This document shows positions 40,420 through 49,961 of a stretch of DNA of 64,000 nucleotides, one piece after another. The notes below the pieces were generated by a model. That model had not been told where the DNA came from and did no database searches. It worked only from the letters and a program-made list of their open reading frames with translations. The position numbers and the translations under genes are program-made. The stretch's first letter is position 1, and every line of letters begins with the position of its first letter. This DNA is from Coriobacteriaceae bacterium (GTDB lineage: Bacteria > Actinomycetota > Coriobacteriia > Coriobacteriales > Coriobacteriaceae), in NCBI GenBank assembly GCA_030525945.1, contig JAUNDT010000006.1, positions 1 to 64,000 of the forward strand, written 5' to 3'.

Positions 40420-40647
40420 AAACCTCCCCCGCATTGGGGGTGGTTTAGGGCATCGCATTTTAAACCTCCCCTTCATTGGGGGAGGTTTGAGGCACGCAAA
40501 CGAGATACCCCGAATAAGAATCAACAAAACCGCAGGATTCCGTTGCACGAAATCGCCAGTGAGCCCCCGAGTTACTCAAAACCACCCCCAATATAGGGGA
40601 GGTTTTCTGAGCGAGGCCCCAAACCAGCCCCAATGCAGGGGAGGTTT
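40420..40647. mobile_element. ~228 bp palindromic repeat element, copy 1 (MITE-like)
   Basis: Four hairpin units of the type AAACCTCCCC, NNCATT, GGGGGTGGTTT: direct at 40420-40447 and 40462-40489 (42 bases apart), inverted at 40578-40606 and 40621-40647 (43 apart), around an 88-base centre. The same layout recurs at 49732-49961. It has no coding capacity and lies within the thiamine transporter operon. Confidence 0.7.
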
Positions 40648-40761
40648 GGGGCGCACGCGCAAAATCGCCGTGCGCGACACGAGAGACGCATACGGCTGCA
40701 CGCAAAACTGCATTCCTCTGGCGTGCAGACCGCCTCGCAGCCCAAGACGCCAAATCGCTTC

Positions 40762-41814
40762 CTATGCCACGAACTCTTCGGTCATACCGGCGCCGGGCTC
40801 GATCTTAGGCGCAAACCCCTGGTCGCCCACCCATTCAAAGAAGGCATCCCAACGGTCCCGGTCAATGACGCCCCAAGCCTCGGCATCCGCCTGATATTGC
40901 TCGGCCAAGTAGCGCTGACTTGCCTGCACGAGCTCAGGTTCGAGCTCCGGAGCGGCCTTGAGCAAGACCTCCGCCGCACCCTGCGGATCCTTGATGCAGT
41001 CCTCGTAACCGCGACGTGTTGCATCCATAAACGCCTGGACCATCTTGGCGTCATCGGCGATCACATCGTTGTTCGCAATGATAACCGGCGTATAGAAGTC
41101 AAAGACGGGGTCGATATCGGCAAAGGCGAAGTAGTTCGTGTCGAGCCCCGCGAGCTTGCACTTCTCGCCCGCCCATGCCCAGTAAATCCAAATGGAGTCA
41201 ACCTGGTTAGTGGAAAGCGCCGTGACCTCATCTGTCACGGTGGAGGGAATCATCTCGACCTGGGAGAAGTCGCCGCCATCGGCCTCCACGCAGCGCTCGA
41301 TAACGCCCTGCTCAATGGGCATCTCCCACGTTGCGTACGTGTGGCCCGCCATGTCGGCCGGGCTGTCGATGCCCTTCTCCTTCATGCTGATGATGCCCGA
41401 CGTGTTGTGCTGGATAATCGCGGCAATGGCCGTGACGGGCAGGCTGTCCTTGCCCGACACGTACGACGCCATGGTGTCCTGAAAGCTCACGCCGAACTCG
41501 GCGTCGCCCGCGGCCACCAGCGCGTCGGCGCCGTTCTCGGGCGCCTGGACGATCTCGACCTCGAGACCGGCCTCTTTGTAGTAGCCGCGCTCCGCCGCAA
41601 CGTAAATGCCCGTGTGGTTGGTGTTGGGTGTCCAGTCCAGCGCAAACGTGACCTTACGAAGGCCCTTGGCGCCCGAGGCGCTGCCAGCGGAGCCGTTGCC
41701 ATCGCCCGCGCCGCAGCCCGCAAGAGCGCCCGCGCCGGCAAGGCCCAGGCCGGCCGCACCGGCGCACAGTACGGAGCGACGGGAAACCGAATAATGACTG
41801 TTGTTTGCAAACAT
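40762..41814 (-). CDS. thiY: NMT1/THI5-like substrate-binding lipoprotein
   Basis: 350 residues. The signal has SRRSVL (Tat-like twin arginine) and lipobox LAGC with Cys34. The mature part starts with KVTFALDWTPNTNHTGIYVAAERGYYKEAGLEVEI, the hallmark of the NMT1/THI5-like family that binds formyl-aminopyrimidine or HMP. It captures a thiamine precursor on the cell surface for the ThiX/ThiZ transporter. GGAAG precedes ATG 41814. It follows thiX in the operon, 118 bases downstream. Confidence 0.9.
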   Translation of the reverse strand: MFANNSHYSVSRRSVLCAGAAGLGLAGAGALAGCGAGDGNGSAGSASGAKGLRKVTFALDWTPNTNHTGIYVAAERGYYKEAGLEVEIVQAPENGADALVAAGDAEFGVSFQDTMASYVSGKDSLPVTAIAAIIQHNTSGIISMKEKGIDSPADMAGHTYATWEMPIEQGVIERCVEADGGDFSQVEMIPSTVTDEVTALSTNQVDSIWIYWAWAGEKCKLAGLDTNYFAFADIDPVFDFYTPVIIANNDVIADDAKMVQAFMDATRRGYEDCIKDPQGAAEVLLKAAPELEPELVQASQRYLAEQYQADAEAWGVIDRDRWDAFFEWVGDQGFAPKIEPGAGMTEEFVA

Positions 41815-41932
41815 GAAAACACTTCCTTTTGAACTTCCGCCGCAGGTAGATTGCCCTGCACGACGGATCATGGATATCGAAGAATCGAATTGCGGACGGT
41901 TGGCGTCCGTGTGGCGCACTCTTGCTGCGCGT

Positions 41933-42940
41933 CTATCCCTTGCTCGTCCGCGAGCAGCGCTCCCACGGTATGGCGACGCGCCTCAACGCATCAACCGCCC
42001 ACATAAGCGCCAGGCTCAACGCGGAAATCAGGAAGATCACCGCGAACATCTTGTCGAACGAATACGCCTTACGAACGCGCGTCATATACACGCCCAGGCC
42101 GGAGAACCCGCCGAGCCACTCCGCGATCACGGCGCCCACGATGGCGTATGCAGCCGAGATCTTGAGGCCGCCGAAGAGCTGCGGCAACGCGGCGGGCAGC
42201 TTGACGTGACGCATGATCTGCCAGCGCGTCGCCCCCATGGCCCGCATGAGGTCCATCTCGTCAGGGTCGACGGAGCGCAGGCCCTCGAGCAGGCCGACCG
42301 TAATGGGGAAGAACGTGGCCACCACGATGAGCACGACTTTGGGCAGCATGCCGTAGCCGAACCACAGCACCAAAAGCGGCGCGATCGCCACCGTCGGTAT
42401 GGTCTGCGTGAGCACCACGATCGGGTAGAACGCGCGGTATAGCAGCTCAAAGCGGTCCATCAGCACGGCGGCGATGAACCCGAGCGCAACGCCCGCGCCA
42501 AGTCCCAGCCCCGCCTCGGCAAGCGAAGTGGCGGCATGGGCGGCGAGCAGCGGCCAGTCGGACACCAGCGCCTGCACCACCGCCGCGGGGCTCGGTAGCA
42601 TAAAGCTGGGTACCAAGCCGGCGCTGCACACGAGCTGCCAGGTGGCGAGCATTGCCACGATGGCGACCGGGGCGGCAAGGCGCAGCGCCACGCGAGCCGC
42701 GTGAGACGTGCCTTGGGATGCCTGACGCACGTTCCGGGTCAACTCGCGAGCCGCGCGGGCCGACTCGCGCGCGCACGTTGCCGATTTGGACGCATCTCCG
42801 CCATGAGAATGGCGAATCCGGCATTGCGATGACGCGCATGTATCCGAATGGCGCTGGGGGCGCTCTCCGCGGTCGGGGCGGTCATCGCAGCCCGCGGCCT
42901 CCGTATGAGCCGCGCGCTCAGGGGAGCCCGTGTTACGCAT
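41933..42940 (-). CDS. thiX: ABC transporter permease, thiamine-precursor uptake
   Basis: 335 residues if started at ATG 42940, which overlaps the stop of the DUF77 gene by 8 bases. The first 80 residues would then be hydrophilic and unusual; a GTG at 42730 is an alternative that gives the normal permease length of about 265. Six membrane segments follow, with the inner-membrane EAA-like loop MDLMRAMGATRWQIMRHVKLPAALPQLFGGLK. It forms the membrane channel with ThiZ. Confidence 0.85.
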   Translation of the reverse strand: MRNTGSPERAAHTEAAGCDDRPDRGERPQRHSDTCASSQCRIRHSHGGDASKSATCARESARAARELTRNVRQASQGTSHAARVALRLAAPVAIVAMLATWQLVCSAGLVPSFMLPSPAAVVQALVSDWPLLAAHAATSLAEAGLGLGAGVALGFIAAVLMDRFELLYRAFYPIVVLTQTIPTVAIAPLLVLWFGYGMLPKVVLIVVATFFPITVGLLEGLRSVDPDEMDLMRAMGATRWQIMRHVKLPAALPQLFGGLKISAAYAIVGAVIAEWLGGFSGLGVYMTRVRKAYSFDKMFAVIFLISALSLALMWAVDALRRVAIPWERCSRTSKG

Positions 42941-43241
42941 CGTTCTCGTGGTACTTGGTGATTTTTTCCTCCGTGGTGAGGACGCCTATCTCGGGGGCGA
43001 AGAAGATCTTGACGTACGTCGCGACCTCGGGGGCGCCCGCCTCGACGCAAATGCGATTCACGCCCGCCACGACCTCCATGCACTGGTCGTAATCACCCTG
43101 GATGGTCGTCTCAAAAGGCCCCACGTAGGCGTCGGGGAACTTCGATTGGATGTAAGCGATCGCCTCGTCGACGATGCGGATCACCTCGTCGTTCCCGTCC
43201 ACATGCTGCGGCAGGACCTGGATTGCCACGCTTGCTTCCAT
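42933..43241 (-). CDS. thiamine-binding/MTH1187-YkoF family protein
   Basis: 102 residues of the DUF77 (MTH1187/YkoF-like) family, with VAIQVLPQ, IVDEAIAYIQSKF, VGPFETTIQGDYDQCMEVV. Members bind thiamine or a related compound and are often encoded with HMP transporters. It is first in the riboswitch-controlled operon. AAAGGA precedes ATG 43241. Confidence 0.88.
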   Translation of the reverse strand: MEASVAIQVLPQHVDGNDEVIRIVDEAIAYIQSKFPDAYVGPFETTIQGDYDQCMEVVAGVNRICVEAGAPEVATYVKIFFAPEIGVLTTEEKITKYHENDA

Positions 43242-43261
43242 GGCCGTTCCTTTCTGGGCCC

Positions 43262-43295
43262 AAAAAGCGGGCCCCGTAACCGTAGGGGCCCGCTT
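43262..43295 (-). terminator. riboswitch expression-platform terminator
   Basis: A perfect 11-bp stem AAGCGGGCCCC/GGGGCCCGCTT (43285-43295 with 43265-43275), a 9-base loop and TTTTT at 43266-43262 on the minus strand. It lies between the TPP aptamer and the first gene, so thiamine pyrophosphate should cause early termination. Confidence 0.9.
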
Positions 43296-43326
43296 GGAGC
43301 GCATGCAAACAAGCAAGGTTTTCGGT

Positions 43327-43443
43327 ATCCCTACGCCGGCATTACCCGGATCAGGTTGCGGGTCGAAGCGGTGCTGCGCCGCGCTCGCACAGCCGAGCGC
43401 GCAGCGGGCTTCCTCTCAGCCGGCCTCCGCCAGCTCCCCGTTG
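43327..43443 (-). promoter_or_regulatory. TPP riboswitch (THI element) aptamer
   Basis: On the minus strand it runs from ACGGGGAGC through the conserved GGCTGAGAGG, a GC-rich variable stem, then ACCCGCAACCTGATCCGGG and GTAGGGAT. CTGAGA and ACCTGATC are the two diagnostic TPP-binding segments. A -10-like TATACT lies at 43455-43460 just upstream. It controls the downstream DUF77-thiX-thiY-thiZ genes. Confidence 0.95.
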
Positions 43444-43530
43444 TCTCGTTCACGAGTATAGCGCGAGTTACCTGCCAAACGGCAGCGCGCCCAAGAAAAA
43501 AGGCCCATCAAGATCGCTCCCAATAGGCCC

Positions 43531-43571
43531 AAAATGCGTCATTTAGGGTCTGACCCTCAATGACGCATTTT
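43531..43571. repeat. ~40 bp gene-end palindrome, copy 1
   Basis: AAAATGCGTCATTTAGGGTC, a one-base centre, and its inverse with a single mismatch (CTCAA for CTAAA). It forms a bidirectional terminator-like hairpin with A/T ends, and provides the TAA stop of manA. Confidence 0.85.
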
Positions 43572-44502
43572 ACAGATGCGAAGTGATGACCGTCATGGTG
43601 CCGGTGAGCTCGAGCGCATCGCAAGCGGAAAGAGCCAGCAGGTGAGAGCCCTTCTTCACGGGCTTGCCGTTCACGGTGCCCTCGCCCTCGATCACGCTCA
43701 CGCAGGTGAAGGGGTACGGCGTCGGGAAGGTGAGCTCGCCCGCCACGCTCAGGCGCTCAACCGTGTAGCAGTCGGTGGTCACGAGGGTGGTCACGCCGTC
43801 GACCTCGGGCGCGGTCACAGCGCCGGACTCGGGCGCGGCCATGCCGTAGTCGATCACGTCGAGCGACTGCGCCAGGTGCAGCGGGCGCAGCTGGCCGTCA
43901 TCGCCCGGGCGGTCGTAGTCGTACACGCGGTACGTCACGTCGCTGGATTGCTGGGTCTCCAAAATAACCGTGCCGCCCTTGATGGCATGCACGCAGCCGG
44001 GGTCGATCTGGAAGAAGTCGCCCGTGTGAATGGGAATCACGTTGAGCAGCTCATCCCAACGGCCCTCCTCCACCATCTGCGCGAACTCCTCACGCGAGGA
44101 GGCGTTCTGACCCACCACGATGGTGCCACCCTCCTCGGCGGAAAGCACGTACCAGCACTCCTTCTTGCCCAGGCTGCCGTTCTCATGCTCGCCCGCGTAG
44201 GCGTCGTCGGGGTGCACCTGGATGGAAAGGTCGTCGTCGGCGTCGATGATCTTGACGAGCAGCGGGAACACGTCGCCCTCGCAGTTGCCGAACAGCTCGC
44301 GATGCTCGGCCCACAGCCACGAAAGCGTCTTGCCGGCGTACGCTCCGCTCGCAATGACGTCGTCGCCGTTCTCGTGCGCCGAAATCGCCCAGCACTCGCC
44401 CACGGGACCTGCGGGAATCTCATAGCCGAACTCGGTCTCGAGACGACGTCCACCCCAGATCTTGCCCTTGAAATCGGGTACGAGCTCAATGATCGAATCC
44501 AT
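43570..44502 (-). CDS. manA: class I mannose-6-phosphate isomerase
   Basis: 310 residues, the short Bacillus-type ManA. It interconverts mannose-6-phosphate and fructose-6-phosphate. Zinc ligands are seen in QVHPDD (His97), KKECWYVL (Glu115) and GCVHAIKGG (His172), and the cupin strands PGDDGQLRPLHL and the C-terminal GEGTVNGKPVKKGSHLL complete the fold. GAGGGAG precedes the ATG. The stop codon lies in the repeat palindrome. Confidence 0.95.
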   Translation of the reverse strand: MDSIIELVPDFKGKIWGGRRLETEFGYEIPAGPVGECWAISAHENGDDVIASGAYAGKTLSWLWAEHRELFGNCEGDVFPLLVKIIDADDDLSIQVHPDDAYAGEHENGSLGKKECWYVLSAEEGGTIVVGQNASSREEFAQMVEEGRWDELLNVIPIHTGDFFQIDPGCVHAIKGGTVILETQQSSDVTYRVYDYDRPGDDGQLRPLHLAQSLDVIDYGMAAPESGAVTAPEVDGVTTLVTTDCYTVERLSVAGELTFPTPYPFTCVSVIEGEGTVNGKPVKKGSHLLALSACDALELTGTMTVITSHL

Positions 44503-44526
44503 CGAAAACTCCCTCTCGTCAAATGA

Positions 44527-44562
44527 ACAATGCCGCTGCCAAAACTCCTGGCAACAGCATTG
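44527..44562 (-). terminator. hairpin between the response regulator and manA
   Basis: CAATGCTGTTGCC on the minus strand pairs with GGCAGCGGCATTG (two G-U pairs) around an 8-base loop, followed by TTC. It could end response regulator transcription, about 190 bases after the stop, or fold in the manA leader. Bases 44563-44753 hold nothing else I can identify. Confidence 0.5.
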
Positions 44563-44753
44563 TACTCACTTATTCGCGCCGAGGCGCGCCTGCTTGCGCG
44601 GGTGCCCGGAGCACGGTCGGGACGGGTATGGAAAGCCGGTGGCGGCGGGGTTCTGATACGCCAGCAAGCTGGTAAATCATGGCGAACTGCACGCGCTGCC
44701 CTGTTCGGTGCAACACCGCGGCTGCAAAGAGGCAGAATATGCCCTTCTACCTG

Positions 44754-45467
44754 CTACTTCTCGATCGTGTACCCCACGCCCCAGATGTTCTTGATGAAGC
44801 GCGGATTCTGCGCGTCGTCGCCGAGCTTCTCGCGCAGGTGGCGGATATGCACCATGACGGTGTTGTTCGACCCCGCCATGAACTCCTCGTCCCACACGGC
44901 GCGGAACAGCTCCTCGACCGGGACGACGTGTCCGCGGTGCTCCGCCAAATACAGCAGAATCGCATACTCCAGCGGCGTGCAGCGCACCGCCTTTTCGTCC
45001 ACCGTGACTGTGCGCGCGTCCTTGTTAATTACAAGACCATTGAACGAGATAATCGGGCCCGCGACCTCCGCCTCGGCGGCCTGCTCGCGGCTGCCGTAAC
45101 TCGTGTACCTGCGCAGCTGCGCCTTGCAGCGCGCCACCAGCTCGAGCGGTCGGAACGGCTTGACCATGTAGTCGTCCGCGCCGAGCGAAAGCCCCTGGAT
45201 CTTATCGGCCTGGCTGTCGCGCGCCGTGAGCATGATGACCGGGTAGGTGCGCTCCGTGCGGATCGTGCGCAAAAGCTCAAAGCCGTCCACGTCGGGCAGC
45301 ATGATGTCGAGCACGGCCAGGTCGAATTCGCGCTCCAAGATGAGGCGTGCGGCGTCGGCGCCCGTATAGGCGAGCGTCACGTCGAAGCCCTCGTTGCGCA
45401 GGTAGATACCCACGAGGTCCGTGATGGTCTTTTCGTCATCCACAACTAAAATGCGCGGCGTGTCCAC
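44754..45467 (-). CDS. OmpR/PhoB-family response regulator (orphan)
   Basis: 237 residues. A complete receiver has the acidic pair in VVDDE, phosphorylation Asp54 (AVLDIMLPD), Thr (MLTAR) and Lys in MVKPF. A winged-helix domain follows (about 140-237) with GSNNTVMVHIRHLREKLGDD, most like VanR-type regulators. No histidine kinase gene adjoins it. It is transcribed divergently from a D,D-carboxypeptidase, a typical target of VanR-like regulators. The GTG at 45467 has AAAGGAG upstream. Confidence 0.9.
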   Translation of the reverse strand: MDTPRILVVDDEKTITDLVGIYLRNEGFDVTLAYTGADAARLILEREFDLAVLDIMLPDVDGFELLRTIRTERTYPVIMLTARDSQADKIQGLSLGADDYMVKPFRPLELVARCKAQLRRYTSYGSREQAAEAEVAGPIISFNGLVINKDARTVTVDEKAVRCTPLEYAILLYLAEHRGHVVPVEELFRAVWDEEFMAGSNNTVMVHIRHLREKLGDDAQNPRFIKNIWGVGYTIEK

Positions 45468-45860
45468 AAAACGCTCCTTTCGCCCCTCTCCATTATGGCG
45501 AAGACGCCCGTGCTCCGCAGCTTTTGCACGGGCATTAAGCAAATGCTAAGGAGCACGGGGTGTCGGCGGGGTCGCGGGGGCGGCGGTGGGAGCGCATGGG
45601 CGTCGGTGCACAGCGGCTCGCGAAATCGACCGAATCTCGCGTCCCTCGGTCCAGCGCACCCGATCCCTCGGCACCGCATCTACAACCCTTCGACCCCGCA
45701 GCGGCGCAGCCCACGCCCTCTGCCCCGCGTCTCGCGCTCCGTCGCAGCACAGCACCGCACACCGCACGTGCCCCGAGCGCTGGCAACTCCCCACGTGCGG
45801 CAACGTCCGCACCAGGTGGTACACTCTGGCTAATCTTTCCGAATCCCATGAAAGGCCCGT
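45468..45860. other. divergent intergenic region
   Basis: 393 bases between the response regulator and the carboxypeptidase. No gene is supported. The plus-strand end has TACACT about 40 bases before the carboxypeptidase start as a possible -10. Both promoters must lie here, but I see no clear repeated operator. Confidence 0.4.
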
Positions 45861-47171
45861 ATGAAAAAGCGTGTTCCCGTTATAGCCGCCGCGTCTTTTG
45901 CCCTCGCGCTCCTCGCCCCCGAAGGCGCGCATGCCGAGGTTCGCACCGGCGACCTCATCTTGGGAACCTCCGCCATCGAGCGCGGCATCGACGCCTCTGA
46001 GCTGCCCGACATTTCCGCCCCGCACGCCATCGTCGTTGGGCCGGACGGACGCGTGTACTACGAGCGAAACGCCAGCGATCCCATCAAGATCGCCTCGACC
46101 ACCAAGGTGATGACCACGCTTGTTGCCCTCGAGCACTGCGAGCTTTCCGACATCGTCACCGTCGACCACGCTGCGGCGACGGTGGGCGAATCCTGCGTGG
46201 GCCTGCTCGAAGGCGACACCCTCACCATGGAAGAGGCGCTCACCGGCCTCATGGTCATGAGCGGTAATGACGCGGCCACGGCAATCGCGACGACCGCCGG
46301 CGCCAAAATCGATCCCTCGAGCGACGACCCCTACGGCGTGTTCATCGACGCGATGAACGCCAAGGCAGCTGAGCTCGGCTGCACGGACACGGTGTTCGAG
46401 AACCCTCATGGCCTGGACTTCGACGCCTGGGTGGGCGATATGCACTCCACCGCGAGCGACATGGCAAAGATTTACAACGCGGCCATGGAAAATGACGAGT
46501 TTCGTGCCATCAACACCACGGACCGCACGTCAATTGAGGTGACGTCCGCCGACGGCTCCGCCCGCACGATCGATTTGGCCGTGCGCAACGAGATCCGCGG
46601 CAAGAGCGGCAACATCGGCGGCAAAACGGGCACCACGTACGAGGCGGGCAACTGCTTCATTGGCACGTATGTGCAGGACGCCGGCGGCGAGGTCACCATC
46701 GCGGTATTCGGCTGCGAGGACAACGAGGCGCGCTGGGCCGATAGCCTTGCGCTTTCGAGCTGGTACTACGGGCATATTTCCACCGTGCCGATGGCGAATT
46801 CGCCGCGCGAGCGCGGAGGAGCGCCGGTAATCGCAGAGGCGCCCTGCACCAGCTGGACCGACAGAACTGCCGACGTCACACTTAGCGATCCCGACGCAAC
46901 GATGCACGTGTTCAACTTGGGCGAAGAGCTCGAGCAGAAGGTTTCGCTCGATGAGCTGAGCGGCGCGGTTGAAAAGGGGCAGAAGGTCGGCACCATCTCC
47001 TACCTGCAAGATGGCGAGGTCGTGAGCGAGGCGGACCTGGTCGCCGCCGAGAACGTCCCCGCGCCCAGTCCGCTCGAGTGGGCCATGGTGCAGTTCGACC
47101 GCCTGATCCGCTTCTTCACCGGTGAGCCCGGGGTCGCCGAGACCCGCGTGCTCAACAAATGCGTCATTTAG
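45861..47171 (+). CDS. D-alanyl-D-alanine carboxypeptidase (class A PBP, S11 type)
   Basis: 436 residues. Signal peptide (1-25), then a serine peptidase S11 domain with STTK (Ser79-Lys82), SGN (134-136) and KTGT (255-258). A C-terminal beta-rich domain (about 315-400) follows, and a hydrophobic/amphipathic end FDRLIRFFTG that may touch the membrane. It trims the terminal D-Ala of peptidoglycan stem peptides outside the membrane. The last five codons (NKCVI) and the TAG come from the gene-end palindrome, so the repeat has altered its C-terminus. Confidence 0.93.
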   Translation: MKKRVPVIAAASFALALLAPEGAHAEVRTGDLILGTSAIERGIDASELPDISAPHAIVVGPDGRVYYERNASDPIKIASTTKVMTTLVALEHCELSDIVTVDHAAATVGESCVGLLEGDTLTMEEALTGLMVMSGNDAATAIATTAGAKIDPSSDDPYGVFIDAMNAKAAELGCTDTVFENPHGLDFDAWVGDMHSTASDMAKIYNAAMENDEFRAINTTDRTSIEVTSADGSARTIDLAVRNEIRGKSGNIGGKTGTTYEAGNCFIGTYVQDAGGEVTIAVFGCEDNEARWADSLALSSWYYGHISTVPMANSPRERGGAPVIAEAPCTSWTDRTADVTLSDPDATMHVFNLGEELEQKVSLDELSGAVEKGQKVGTISYLQDGEVVSEADLVAAENVPAPSPLEWAMVQFDRLIRFFTGEPGVAETRVLNKCVI

Positions 47172-47196
47172 GGTCAGACCCTAAATGACGCATTTT
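47157..47196. repeat. ~40 bp gene-end palindrome, copy 2
   Basis: A perfect inverted repeat with arms AAATGCGTCATTTAGGGTC and a short centre, located between two convergent genes. Its left arm gives the TAG stop of the carboxypeptidase, and its right end gives the TAA stop of the 118-residue membrane protein gene. It should terminate both. Confidence 0.9.
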
Positions 47197-47551
47197 ACTC
47201 GCCGCGGCGCTCTTTGGTGAGCTTCTTCGCCTGATGGCGGGAGGCGAACCACACCACGAATGACGTCAAGAACAGAACCGTGAACGCGATGCTGCATACC
47301 TGCGCGAGCTGCAGGTTGTTTTGGCTGGTAAACAGCTGCGCAAGCAAGAACATCGCGAATGTGATAACAATGAGCACGCCGAAAACGCGCGTAAGAGGCA
47401 GGCTGCGATGCAGTTCGTTGTCGATGGGCGCGGGACCGGCAGCCGCCTTGCGACGCTCGCGTAGCTCACGAGCCGCCTCCATGGCGCGCGCGTCTTCCTC
47501 CGCCTTGGCGACCTTATCCTGCTTGAGCTGCTTGTTCGTTTTCTTGCTCAC
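47195..47551 (-). CDS. small membrane protein of unknown function
   Basis: 118 residues. A charged N-terminal helix (1-45, Lys/Glu/Ala/Arg-rich) is followed by two membrane segments (about 58-78 and 86-106) and a basic end. The start is GTG at 47551 with AAGGAG 6 bases upstream. It follows tatD in the same direction. No motif suggests a function. Confidence 0.75.
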   Translation of the reverse strand: MSKKTNKQLKQDKVAKAEEDARAMEAARELRERRKAAAGPAPIDNELHRSLPLTRVFGVLIVITFAMFLLAQLFTSQNNLQLAQVCSIAFTVLFLTSFVVWFASRHQAKKLTKERRGE

Positions 47552-47604
47552 CAAAAACTCCTTGCGTGGTGTGGGGAATGCCCCGCCGATGCCTGCTTGA
47601 CCTT

Positions 47605-48654
47605 CTACCCAAAGAGCGCGATCGAAGACCGCCAAATCGCTTGGGCGATATCGCGCGGCAGCTCGCCCGTGCGGTCCGCGCGGTCATAAATGAGCACGTC
47701 TGCCGTCTGGGCGATCATGGCGGGCTCGCATTCGAGGCCGCGGATGGGCTCGGGCGCCATGTAGGGGCAGTCCGTCTCGAGCAGCAGACGATCGAGCGGG
47801 CATGCGGCAAAGGCCTCACGCACGTCATCGTTGCGCTTGAACGTTGCCGCACCGCCGAAGGCGATATGGCAGCCGAGGCGCACGAACCGCTCCATGGTGG
47901 CATGGTCTTCGCCAAAACAGTGAAGCACGCAGCCCGCCGCGGGCACGCCGACCTGCTCGAGCACGCGCGCAGCATCCGCATGAGCCTCGCGTGCGTCGTC
48001 GCCGTTGTCGTTGCGCAAATGCAACTCAACGGGCACATTGTGACGGACTGCAAGCTCGAGTTGGCGAGCCATGGCGTGCATTTGAAGGTCGTGCGGAGCC
48101 GCCTCGATGTTGTCGTCCGCATCGAAGTGGTAGTCCAAGCCGATTTCGCCCACGCCGGCGCACAGCGGATCTGCCAGGGCGTCCTCGACCTGCGCGTGAA
48201 TGGCGTCCGTGTAGTCGGGGGCACCATAAGGATGCACGCCCACCAGGTAACGCACGGGAATTATCGCCCCGCGCGCGGCAGCGGCGCCTGCCACGCCCTG
48301 TAGCCACGCGGAGAACGCCGCGGCATCCGGCGTCTCCTCGCTTTTGTCGGCGATGGGGTCGTAGAGCGTCACCAAGCCGCGGACGCCCGCCTGGTACGCC
48401 CGCACCAGTACGTCGACGGGATTCTTGTCCTCGCCCCAAAAGGAGCGCAGGTGCGCATGGGTGTCGAACAGAAGCGCTTGTGGGCGCGGCAGCTCGAGCA
48501 CCTTCTTTTTCTTGGCAAACGTCAGGGGCTCCCAGTCCGCAAGATCGTCCAGCACCGCAGTTCCCGTAAGAGCATCCGGCTCCGGGCACACCGTACCTGT
48601 CGTCTGCGGATCCGCATGGACAAGACTGGCGCGCACGTCAGCGTTATCTGTCAT
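47605..48654 (-). CDS. tatD: TatD family metal-dependent DNase
   Basis: 349 residues: a 60-residue N-terminal extension then the TatD barrel. It has DTHAHL (metal pair His66, His68), GEIGLDYHF (metal Glu), LHLRN (His), HCFGE and ETDCPYMAPEP (Asp). TatD acts as a 3'-5' exonuclease and a repair/quality-control nuclease. AAAGGATG precedes the chosen ATG; an ATG three codons earlier overlaps the ribosome-binding site. It is part of the conserved metG-tatD-rsmA group, here ordered rsmA-tatD downstream of metG. Confidence 0.93.
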   Translation of the reverse strand: MTDNADVRASLVHADPQTTGTVCPEPDALTGTAVLDDLADWEPLTFAKKKKVLELPRPQALLFDTHAHLRSFWGEDKNPVDVLVRAYQAGVRGLVTLYDPIADKSEETPDAAAFSAWLQGVAGAAAARGAIIPVRYLVGVHPYGAPDYTDAIHAQVEDALADPLCAGVGEIGLDYHFDADDNIEAAPHDLQMHAMARQLELAVRHNVPVELHLRNDNGDDAREAHADAARVLEQVGVPAAGCVLHCFGEDHATMERFVRLGCHIAFGGAATFKRNDDVREAFAACPLDRLLLETDCPYMAPEPIRGLECEPAMIAQTADVLIYDRADRTGELPRDIAQAIWRSSIALFG

Positions 48655-48680
48655 AAGGATCATCCTTTCGCGCAGCGTGC

Positions 48681-49667
48681 CTACGCGCTTGCCCTATCAG
48701 CGCTCAACGCGCCGGCGAGCTGAACGAATTCGCTGGTTGAGAGGGTCTCGGCTCGAGCGGTCGGCGCGATGCCGCACTGCTCGAACGCCGCGTCGAGCGC
48801 CGCCTTGTCAAAGCCGTTCGAGCTCATGGAATTACGGATGGTCTTGCGTCGCTGGGCAAAGGCGGCATCGACCACGCGGGCGATATCCTCCGAGGTCAAG
48901 GGGTTAGCACCCTCACATGCTGCCGATGCGAGCTCAGGGCAGTCAGCGCCGGACTCGGAAGCGCCCACGGCGGGGGCGTTCGGCGCCGGGGCGGCCTTCT
49001 CCCCCACACGAGGCCCCCTGTAGGCAGAAGATGCCCCCACGCGGTCGATGCGCACCACCGCGGAGTCCACGTGCGGCGCTGGCATGAAGCAGCGCGGCGG
49101 AACCTCAAAACGCCCCGTGACCTCGCCGTACAGGGAAAGCTTGACCGTGTAGGCACCGTAGGCCTTGGTGGCGGGCACGGCCGCGATGCGGTCGGCAACC
49201 TCCTTTTGCACCATAACCACCGCTCGACGCAGGCTCGGCATGGTTTGGAAGAACTGTAGGATGATCGTTGCCGCGACGTTATAGGGCAGGTTGGCTACGA
49301 GCACCTCCGGTTCGCCGCCGAGAGCCTCGGCGATCTGCGCAGGCGGCACCGCAAGCGCGTCGTCCATAATAAAGTTGAAGTTCGCATGGTCAACCGCATG
49401 TGCACAGAGCACCGGCTCGAGCTCCGTATCCATCTCAATCGAGGTCACGCGGCCCGCGTCTTGCACGAGTGCGAGCGTGAGCGTGCCGATGCCCGGGCCG
49501 ACCTCGAGCACGCGCTCGGACCCCGTAAGCTCGGCCAGGTCCATGATGCGCTCAATAACATGGTTGTCGATGAGGAAATTCTGGCCCAAACGATGCTTCG
49601 TTGCCAGGCCAAAGGCCTCGAGCATCTCACGCGTGGCGGTCGGATTTGCAAGCGGAGAGGTTGTCAT
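48681..49667 (-). CDS. rsmA: 16S rRNA (adenine1518/1519-N6)-dimethyltransferase
   Basis: 328 residues. GQNF (28-31), SAM-binding EVGPGIGTLT (55-64), SIEMD, and catalytic NLPYN (126-130) are present. It dimethylates two adjacent adenines of the 3' hairpin of 16S rRNA during 30S maturation. A Pro/Ala/Gly-rich insertion of about 45 residues lies in the C-terminal domain (about 235-280). AAAGGAG precedes ATG 49667. Confidence 0.95.
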   Translation of the reverse strand: MTTSPLANPTATREMLEAFGLATKHRLGQNFLIDNHVIERIMDLAELTGSERVLEVGPGIGTLTLALVQDAGRVTSIEMDTELEPVLCAHAVDHANFNFIMDDALAVPPAQIAEALGGEPEVLVANLPYNVAATIILQFFQTMPSLRRAVVMVQKEVADRIAAVPATKAYGAYTVKLSLYGEVTGRFEVPPRCFMPAPHVDSAVVRIDRVGASSAYRGPRVGEKAAPAPNAPAVGASESGADCPELASAACEGANPLTSEDIARVVDAAFAQRRKTIRNSMSSNGFDKAALDAAFEQCGIAPTARAETLSTSEFVQLAGALSADRASA

Positions 49668-49731
49668 GCGCGAATCTCCTTTGTGACGTGTGAACAAGCG
49701 GGCCGTCGGCGCCGCAAGGGGCGCCGCGCAC

Positions 49732-49961
49732 AAACCTACCCCGCATTGGGGGTGAATTAGGGGGTTCCGAAATAAACCTATGCTGTATTGGGGGTGGTTT
49801 ACGAGCAATTCAACGCATCGCCGAACATTTTTTCAACAAAATGCCTGTTGGCAAAAGAGCAAAAAGTCGATTCACACCGAATGCCCTCGGATTTCACCCC
49901 CAATGTAGGGGAGGTTTTTCCAGCGACCCCTCAAACCTCCCCCAATGCGCTATAAGTTTGG
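49732..49961. mobile_element. ~230 bp palindromic repeat element, copy 2 (MITE-like)
   Basis: The same four-unit plan as at 40420: direct units at 49732-49760 and 49774-49801 (42 bases apart), inverted or degenerate units at 49891-49919 and 49932-49961 (41 apart), around an 89-base centre. Unit sequences are more degenerate than in copy 1. It lies between rsmA and metG. Confidence 0.65.

Follow-up and report, generated by a model that had tools for sequence, protein, structure and literature searches.

What are the two non-coding elements, each built of short palindromes that face each other across a fixed gap, in a 64,000-nucleotide stretch of a Coriobacteriaceae genome (hereafter, the window)? 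Intergenic repeats are usually classed as decaying mobile DNA, and an earlier note on this sequence had offered two candidate identities, a miniature transposon (MITE) and a structured RNA gene. The analysis described below favors a different answer: with a probability of about one half, the element would be a double-stranded DNA site for a putative fast-evolving protein that bridges or wraps both arms, and not a gene or an RNA.

Layout of the two elements

Each window copy consists of four 27-bp imperfect palindromes in the order > > centre < <, with the unit consensus AAACCTCCCC-TATATTG-GGGGAGGTTT and start-to-start unit spacings of 42, 117 and 42 bp that are identical in both copies (Table 1). 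The paired geometry reported in the earlier note is confirmed, and so is the assignment of both copies to one element family, given that the geometry is identical while the sequence between the units differs, and that further copies exist in the genome. The window contains 16 matches to CCCCNNNNTTGGGG with at most one mismatch vs 4.6 in shuffled sequences, and none of the 100 shuffles reached 16. The elements have no sensible coding capacity, as originally proposed.

Table 1. Units and central cores of the two elements in the window
Feature	Position	Strand	Basis
Element 1, unit 1	40420..40446	+	unit pattern match
Element 1, unit 2 (inner)	40462..40488	+	unit pattern match
Element 1, central core ACAAAACCGCAGGATT	40524..40539	+	exact core match
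Element 1, unit 3 (inner)	40579..40605	-	unit pattern match
Element 1, unit 4	40621..40647	-	unit pattern match
Element 2, unit 1	49732..49758	+	unit pattern match
Element 2, unit 2 (inner)	49774..49800	+	unit pattern match
Element 2, variant core ACAAAATGCCTGTTGGC	49836..49852	+	by eye, weaker evidence; central position as in element 1
Element 2, unit 3 (inner)	49891..49917	-	unit pattern match
Element 2, unit 4 (outer half degenerate)	49933..49959	-	17/21 scored positions match

Copies in the same genome and in relatives

The genome that contains the window (1.88 Mb in 23 contigs; hereafter, the own genome) yields 47 forward and 46 reverse matches to the 27-bp pattern with at most three mismatches, and none to the reversed-pattern control; the sites are fewer than the matches because one palindromic site can be counted once per strand. 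There are 17 complete elements, so that both of the original copies are real but their count was too low, and one inside-out unit pair at C10:125871. The latter (L065 3072-3140; G000:C10:125871-125939) consists of two units back to back (< >), 42 bp apart, without a centre or core. The inner unit is exactly 42 bp from the next unit in 33 of 34 cases and 41 bp in the remaining one, and the inner gap is 117 bp in 10 elements, 118 bp in six and 127 bp in one. Unit spacing, on which the claim of a single family had been staked, is thus conserved in further copies, and the claim survives. Extra, decaying units extend outward at intervals of about 42 bp in the copies at C1, C8:99022, C22:118 and C10:183316.

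The window's own family is present in one of the 43 genomes of the genus. In the 12 genomes examined for the gap between metG and rsmA, the own genome carries its own element, other inverted repeats are seen by eye in G037 and G016, and a gap of 111-151 bp without an element is found in G015, G027, G022, G006, G009 and G038; the gap is 470 bp in G017 and 368 bp in G014, and metG of G029 could not be aligned. We make no claim of positional orthology between the window family and other arm families because flanking-gene matches among the relatives are at about the chance level (a rough estimate rather than a computed one). A regulon of neighbor genes was rejected since, by rough gene calls, the genes beside the 18 places are unrelated, and so was a phage origin: the exact paired pattern has no matches in viral contigs, and its four matches in genome contigs all have other spacing and are probably due to chance.

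Sites and distances are conserved, spacers are not

Conservation was assessed in 16 copies, leaving out C23:72694 as a near duplicate of C23:65807. Pairwise identity is 0.88 for the inner units and 0.79 for the outer units, compared to a random expectation of about 0.26, with the half of the unit toward the centre being the more constant one (in the profile and in the sequences). By contrast, the spacers (0.38 and 0.31) and the 33 bp beside the inner units (0.31) are close to this baseline. Within an element, left and right units resemble each other no more than shuffled partners do (permutation, P 0.35 and 0.72); a weak same-element similarity was detected in the outermost spacer (P 0.010, one of six tests). 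Both strands of both window copies fold better than 200 of 200 shuffles but, because the likeness of units within an element does not exceed that of shuffled partners, arm-arm pairing is under no visible constraint despite the strong folding. With the units conserved, the spacers and centre near background and no same-element likeness of units, the constraint is on sites and distances, not on a paired RNA hairpin.

A central core common to different arms

The centre of most own copies contains the core CAAAACCGCAGGATT or a variant thereof, in either orientation, and some elements carry the core twice. With at most three mismatches, the core matches 149 times across 42 genomes of the genus vs 7 times for the reversed pattern (manual sums). 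Among 58 of these 149 loci that were fetched, a non-random choice, 36 have flanks that form an inverted repeat with a score of 16.5 or more, compared to a null from pairs of flanks of different genomes with a mean of 9.1, a 95% level of 11.5 and a maximum of 47; the high null scores probably come from genomes with a common arm family. The arms around the core at the fetched genus loci fall, by eye, into at least six sequence families, and additional arm families surround the core in the own genome as well. The exact core is found in 43 of 297 genomes of the order, mostly in two families, with no match for the reversed control. At 18 further loci (one from the own genus) with 19 exact cores, the flanking inverted repeat exceeds the 95% null level in 17 cases and the 99% level in 8. 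By eye, direct units in other genera are 42 bp apart in L266 and 21 bp apart in L271. The core is thus flanked by inverted arms of quite different sequence, both throughout the genus and in further genera of the order; it is not obligatory, because some elements of the GGTC family described below lack a clear core. Another arm family provides a separate observation: an ATPase-like gene lies between two nearly identical elements in L104 (G014:C12:365700-372100).

Parallel change at orthologous loci of a related family

The related GGTCAAAATACCC (GGTC) family occupies four places in the own genome, C21:1073, C21:5597, C21:38936 and C10:17489, that are syntenic, by neighboring proteins, with elements of G037, G015 and G027; for C21:1073, the synteny is with G037 alone and less close, and for C10:17489, both arms are readable in G037 alone. 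At one locus (three comparisons), the orthologous interiors are 155 and 156 bp long, with an identity of 0.47-0.54 vs 0.51-0.52 after shuffling, and at a second locus, both are 166 bp long, with an identity of 0.55 vs 0.54. Thus, at two of three loci, the interior length agrees within 1 bp whereas the sequence is at background; at the third, the arm-to-arm distance is 231 vs 191, a change of about 40 bp. The orthologous loci that show this retention of length all belong to the GGTC family and none to that of the window.

In the arms at these orthologous loci, the outer 13 bp are nearly invariant. All 7 own arms counted have T at position 19, where all 34 arms of the relatives have G, and position 14 shows no overlap either, with G or A in own arms and T or C in those of the relatives (the degenerate right arm of C21:1073 is left out of these counts, and the 34 arms include the orthologues). 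At several loci, the sites therefore differ in the same way between species, whereas the interior shows no such parallel change. Short-tract gene conversion is a possible cause, but selection imposed by an altered binding protein seems the likelier one. A clustering of this family around the terminus was considered and dropped: the elements of G037 lie at 985-1562 kb and dnaA at 2034 kb, which puts them on one side and not around the terminus. Orthologues compared by eye show no sign of inversion of the centre.

Arm distances that depart from the modal value do so by +10.5, +40.5 and -21.5 bp in the GGTC family and by +10 bp in the window family. In turns of 10.5 bp, these are 1.00, 3.86, -2.05 and 0.95 (P 0.002 against random steps, for four values that were hand-collected and de-duplicated after being seen). 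The off-modal distances thus differ by about whole helical turns, and the elements pair conserved, helically phased sites with spacers that lack conservation, as a protein-binding DNA array does.

RNA and terminator alternatives

A structured RNA, in the form of a long hairpin with an arbitrary stem and the core as a conserved loop, is kept as a rival because long inverted arms fold well as RNA, in this case far better than shuffles, and because a conserved loop on a variable stem is a usual RNA pattern. We nevertheless consider it very unlikely and rejected it as the main reading. No Rfam family matched the window elements or 20 further loci, and the units of an element do not covary between left and right, so the idea of a structured RNA gene is not supported. 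In addition, the spacers and interior have diverged, the core occurs in both orientations and at times twice, and the length changes by whole turns. Less probable still is that the copies are bidirectional transcription terminators or insulators between genes: the copies are indeed intergenic GC-rich hairpins, and C21:38936, an own-genome element of another family, has by eye a hairpin and a T run in its centre, but most copies lack a T run after the stem (by eye), and a terminator needs neither a phased second array nor a fixed 90-bp centre.

Past movement and the transposon alternatives

In G031, a TCTAATAC element located at an unrelated locus resembles the others up to its outer ends and no further, leaving sharp edges and unrelated flanks. 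Likewise, in two own copies 6.9 kb apart, near-identity extends to about 57 bp beyond unit 1 and about 22 bp beyond unit 4 before giving way to unrelated flanks; the two represent a recent duplication. The elements thus did disperse as discrete units, on our reading either long ago or repeatedly.

Transposase ends with multiple sites are known in IS21, Mu and Tn7 relatives, so that the elements could be non-autonomous, MITE-type transposons, the arms of which are such ends and the centre filler, with the transposase lost or elsewhere. The elements share with IS-derived MITEs the small size, lack of coding capacity, terminal inverted repeats, several copies and dispersal as a unit, and by eye, IS21 elements of the genus also carry repeated, inverted sites at both ends. 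We regard this explanation, too, as unlikely. Ends in common with an autonomous transposon were not found in the own genome or in samples of 42 genomes of the genus, where the relatives' arms form tight inverted pairs or single arms and not the ends of a full-length element, and the only own units beyond the 17 elements are the pair at C10:125871. No target-site duplication was seen by eye in two cases, in which the edges are inexact and a clean filled/empty pair is lacking. Moreover, dead insertions are not expected to retain their length while the interior diverges, whereas the related family is fixed at orthologous loci with its length retained. Of the MITE proposal in the earlier note, then, movement and duplication as units stand, but neither the autonomous partner nor the target-site duplication was found. 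IS21 specifically was rejected as the arm source: unlike IS21 elements, those described here have no transposase between the ends, the own genome encodes no IS21 transposase, and the ends differ. An IS21 is instead inserted in a TCTAATAC-type element between the core and the right arm in L220 (G032:C8), where, by eye, a 7-bp duplication is apparent.

REPINs, as described in PMC3116915, consist of two conserved ends in inverted orientation and a spacer whose main constraint is its length. The elements match this description as an inverted pair of short palindromes with an unconserved spacer of conserved length; they are likewise intergenic and lineage-specific in sequence, and the own genome encodes one RAYT-like Y1 protein (259 aa), so that a REPIN-like nature, with movement by a single-copy RAYT (Y1) transposase of the genome, has to be considered. 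We find this very unlikely and rejected it. The palindromes do not flank the Y1 genes: none of 20 Y1 loci (the own one and 19 others) is flanked by any of the arm families described here, save for a two-mismatch string of one family at one locus, and two-mismatch core-like strings occur in four of the 20. The sole RAYT-like Y1 gene of the own genome (L295 2212-3133; G000:C2:99650 region) is flanked by a different inverted palindrome, ATTTAGGGTCAGACCCTAAAT. Compensatory hairpin changes, reported to be common in REPINs, are not seen among the units (unit permutation), and by eye, the consensus AAACCTCCCC..GGGGGAGGTTT has no GTAG or CGTC tag at the unit end. The elements further differ from REPINs in having at least two directly repeated units per side, 42 bp apart, and a core common across lineages.

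A putative DNA-protein structure

Returning to the DNA site, we infer a binding protein, a loop or wrap and a role as follows. A putative sequence-specific protein would bind the 27-bp units, probably as dimers, given the imperfect palindromic symmetry of each unit. Units on the same side are four helical turns apart, which would place the bound proteins on one face, and with the inverted arrays at a helix-fixed distance, the proteins of the two sides could meet and enclose the centre in a small loop or wrap; there, a second factor, common to the order, would read the core. We read the element as a rigid, dyad-symmetric putative protein-binding site that selection appears to have preserved in at least one related family. 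The likeliest inferred role is at the chromosome level (its organisation or segregation, or the control of a mobile system); regulation of neighbors seems less likely because the neighboring genes form no regulon.

Phased protein-binding arrays are found in plasmid parC and looped operators. The elements resemble these in the direct repeats in helical register on both sides of a centre but differ in their many chromosomal copies, species-varying site sequence and central core. A search of literature listings found no description of such elements, and we know of no such DNA-protein system in the clade; sites facing each other across a fixed gap, with variant arms around a common core, suggest an undescribed DNA-protein structure. 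In the related family, sequence at background between sites of near base-pair constant spacing contrasts with the view of such repeats as decaying. If confirmed, this would imply a new DNA-binding protein that forms a rigid complex at some dozen or more sites along the chromosome, and it would offer a test bed for how a protein and its sites across the genome co-evolve.

More tentatively, and with the odds against it, there could be an order-wide DNA-protein system in which the core is conserved, protein specificity and genome sites change together between species, and the arm distance stays helix-locked beyond the survival of neutral sequence. Centromeres and PRDM9 hotspots are rapidly co-evolving site systems, and the order-wide system, if true, would be their bacterial counterpart.

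Elsewhere in the window, Rfam models identify a raiA RNA (RF03072; 9049-9321, minus strand, 144 bits) and a DUF3800-XI RNA (RF02975; 24054-24101, minus strand). The latter lies at the edge of a lower-GC stretch at 24-32 kb (GC 0.55 vs 0.62-0.68 elsewhere), possibly an acquired segment.
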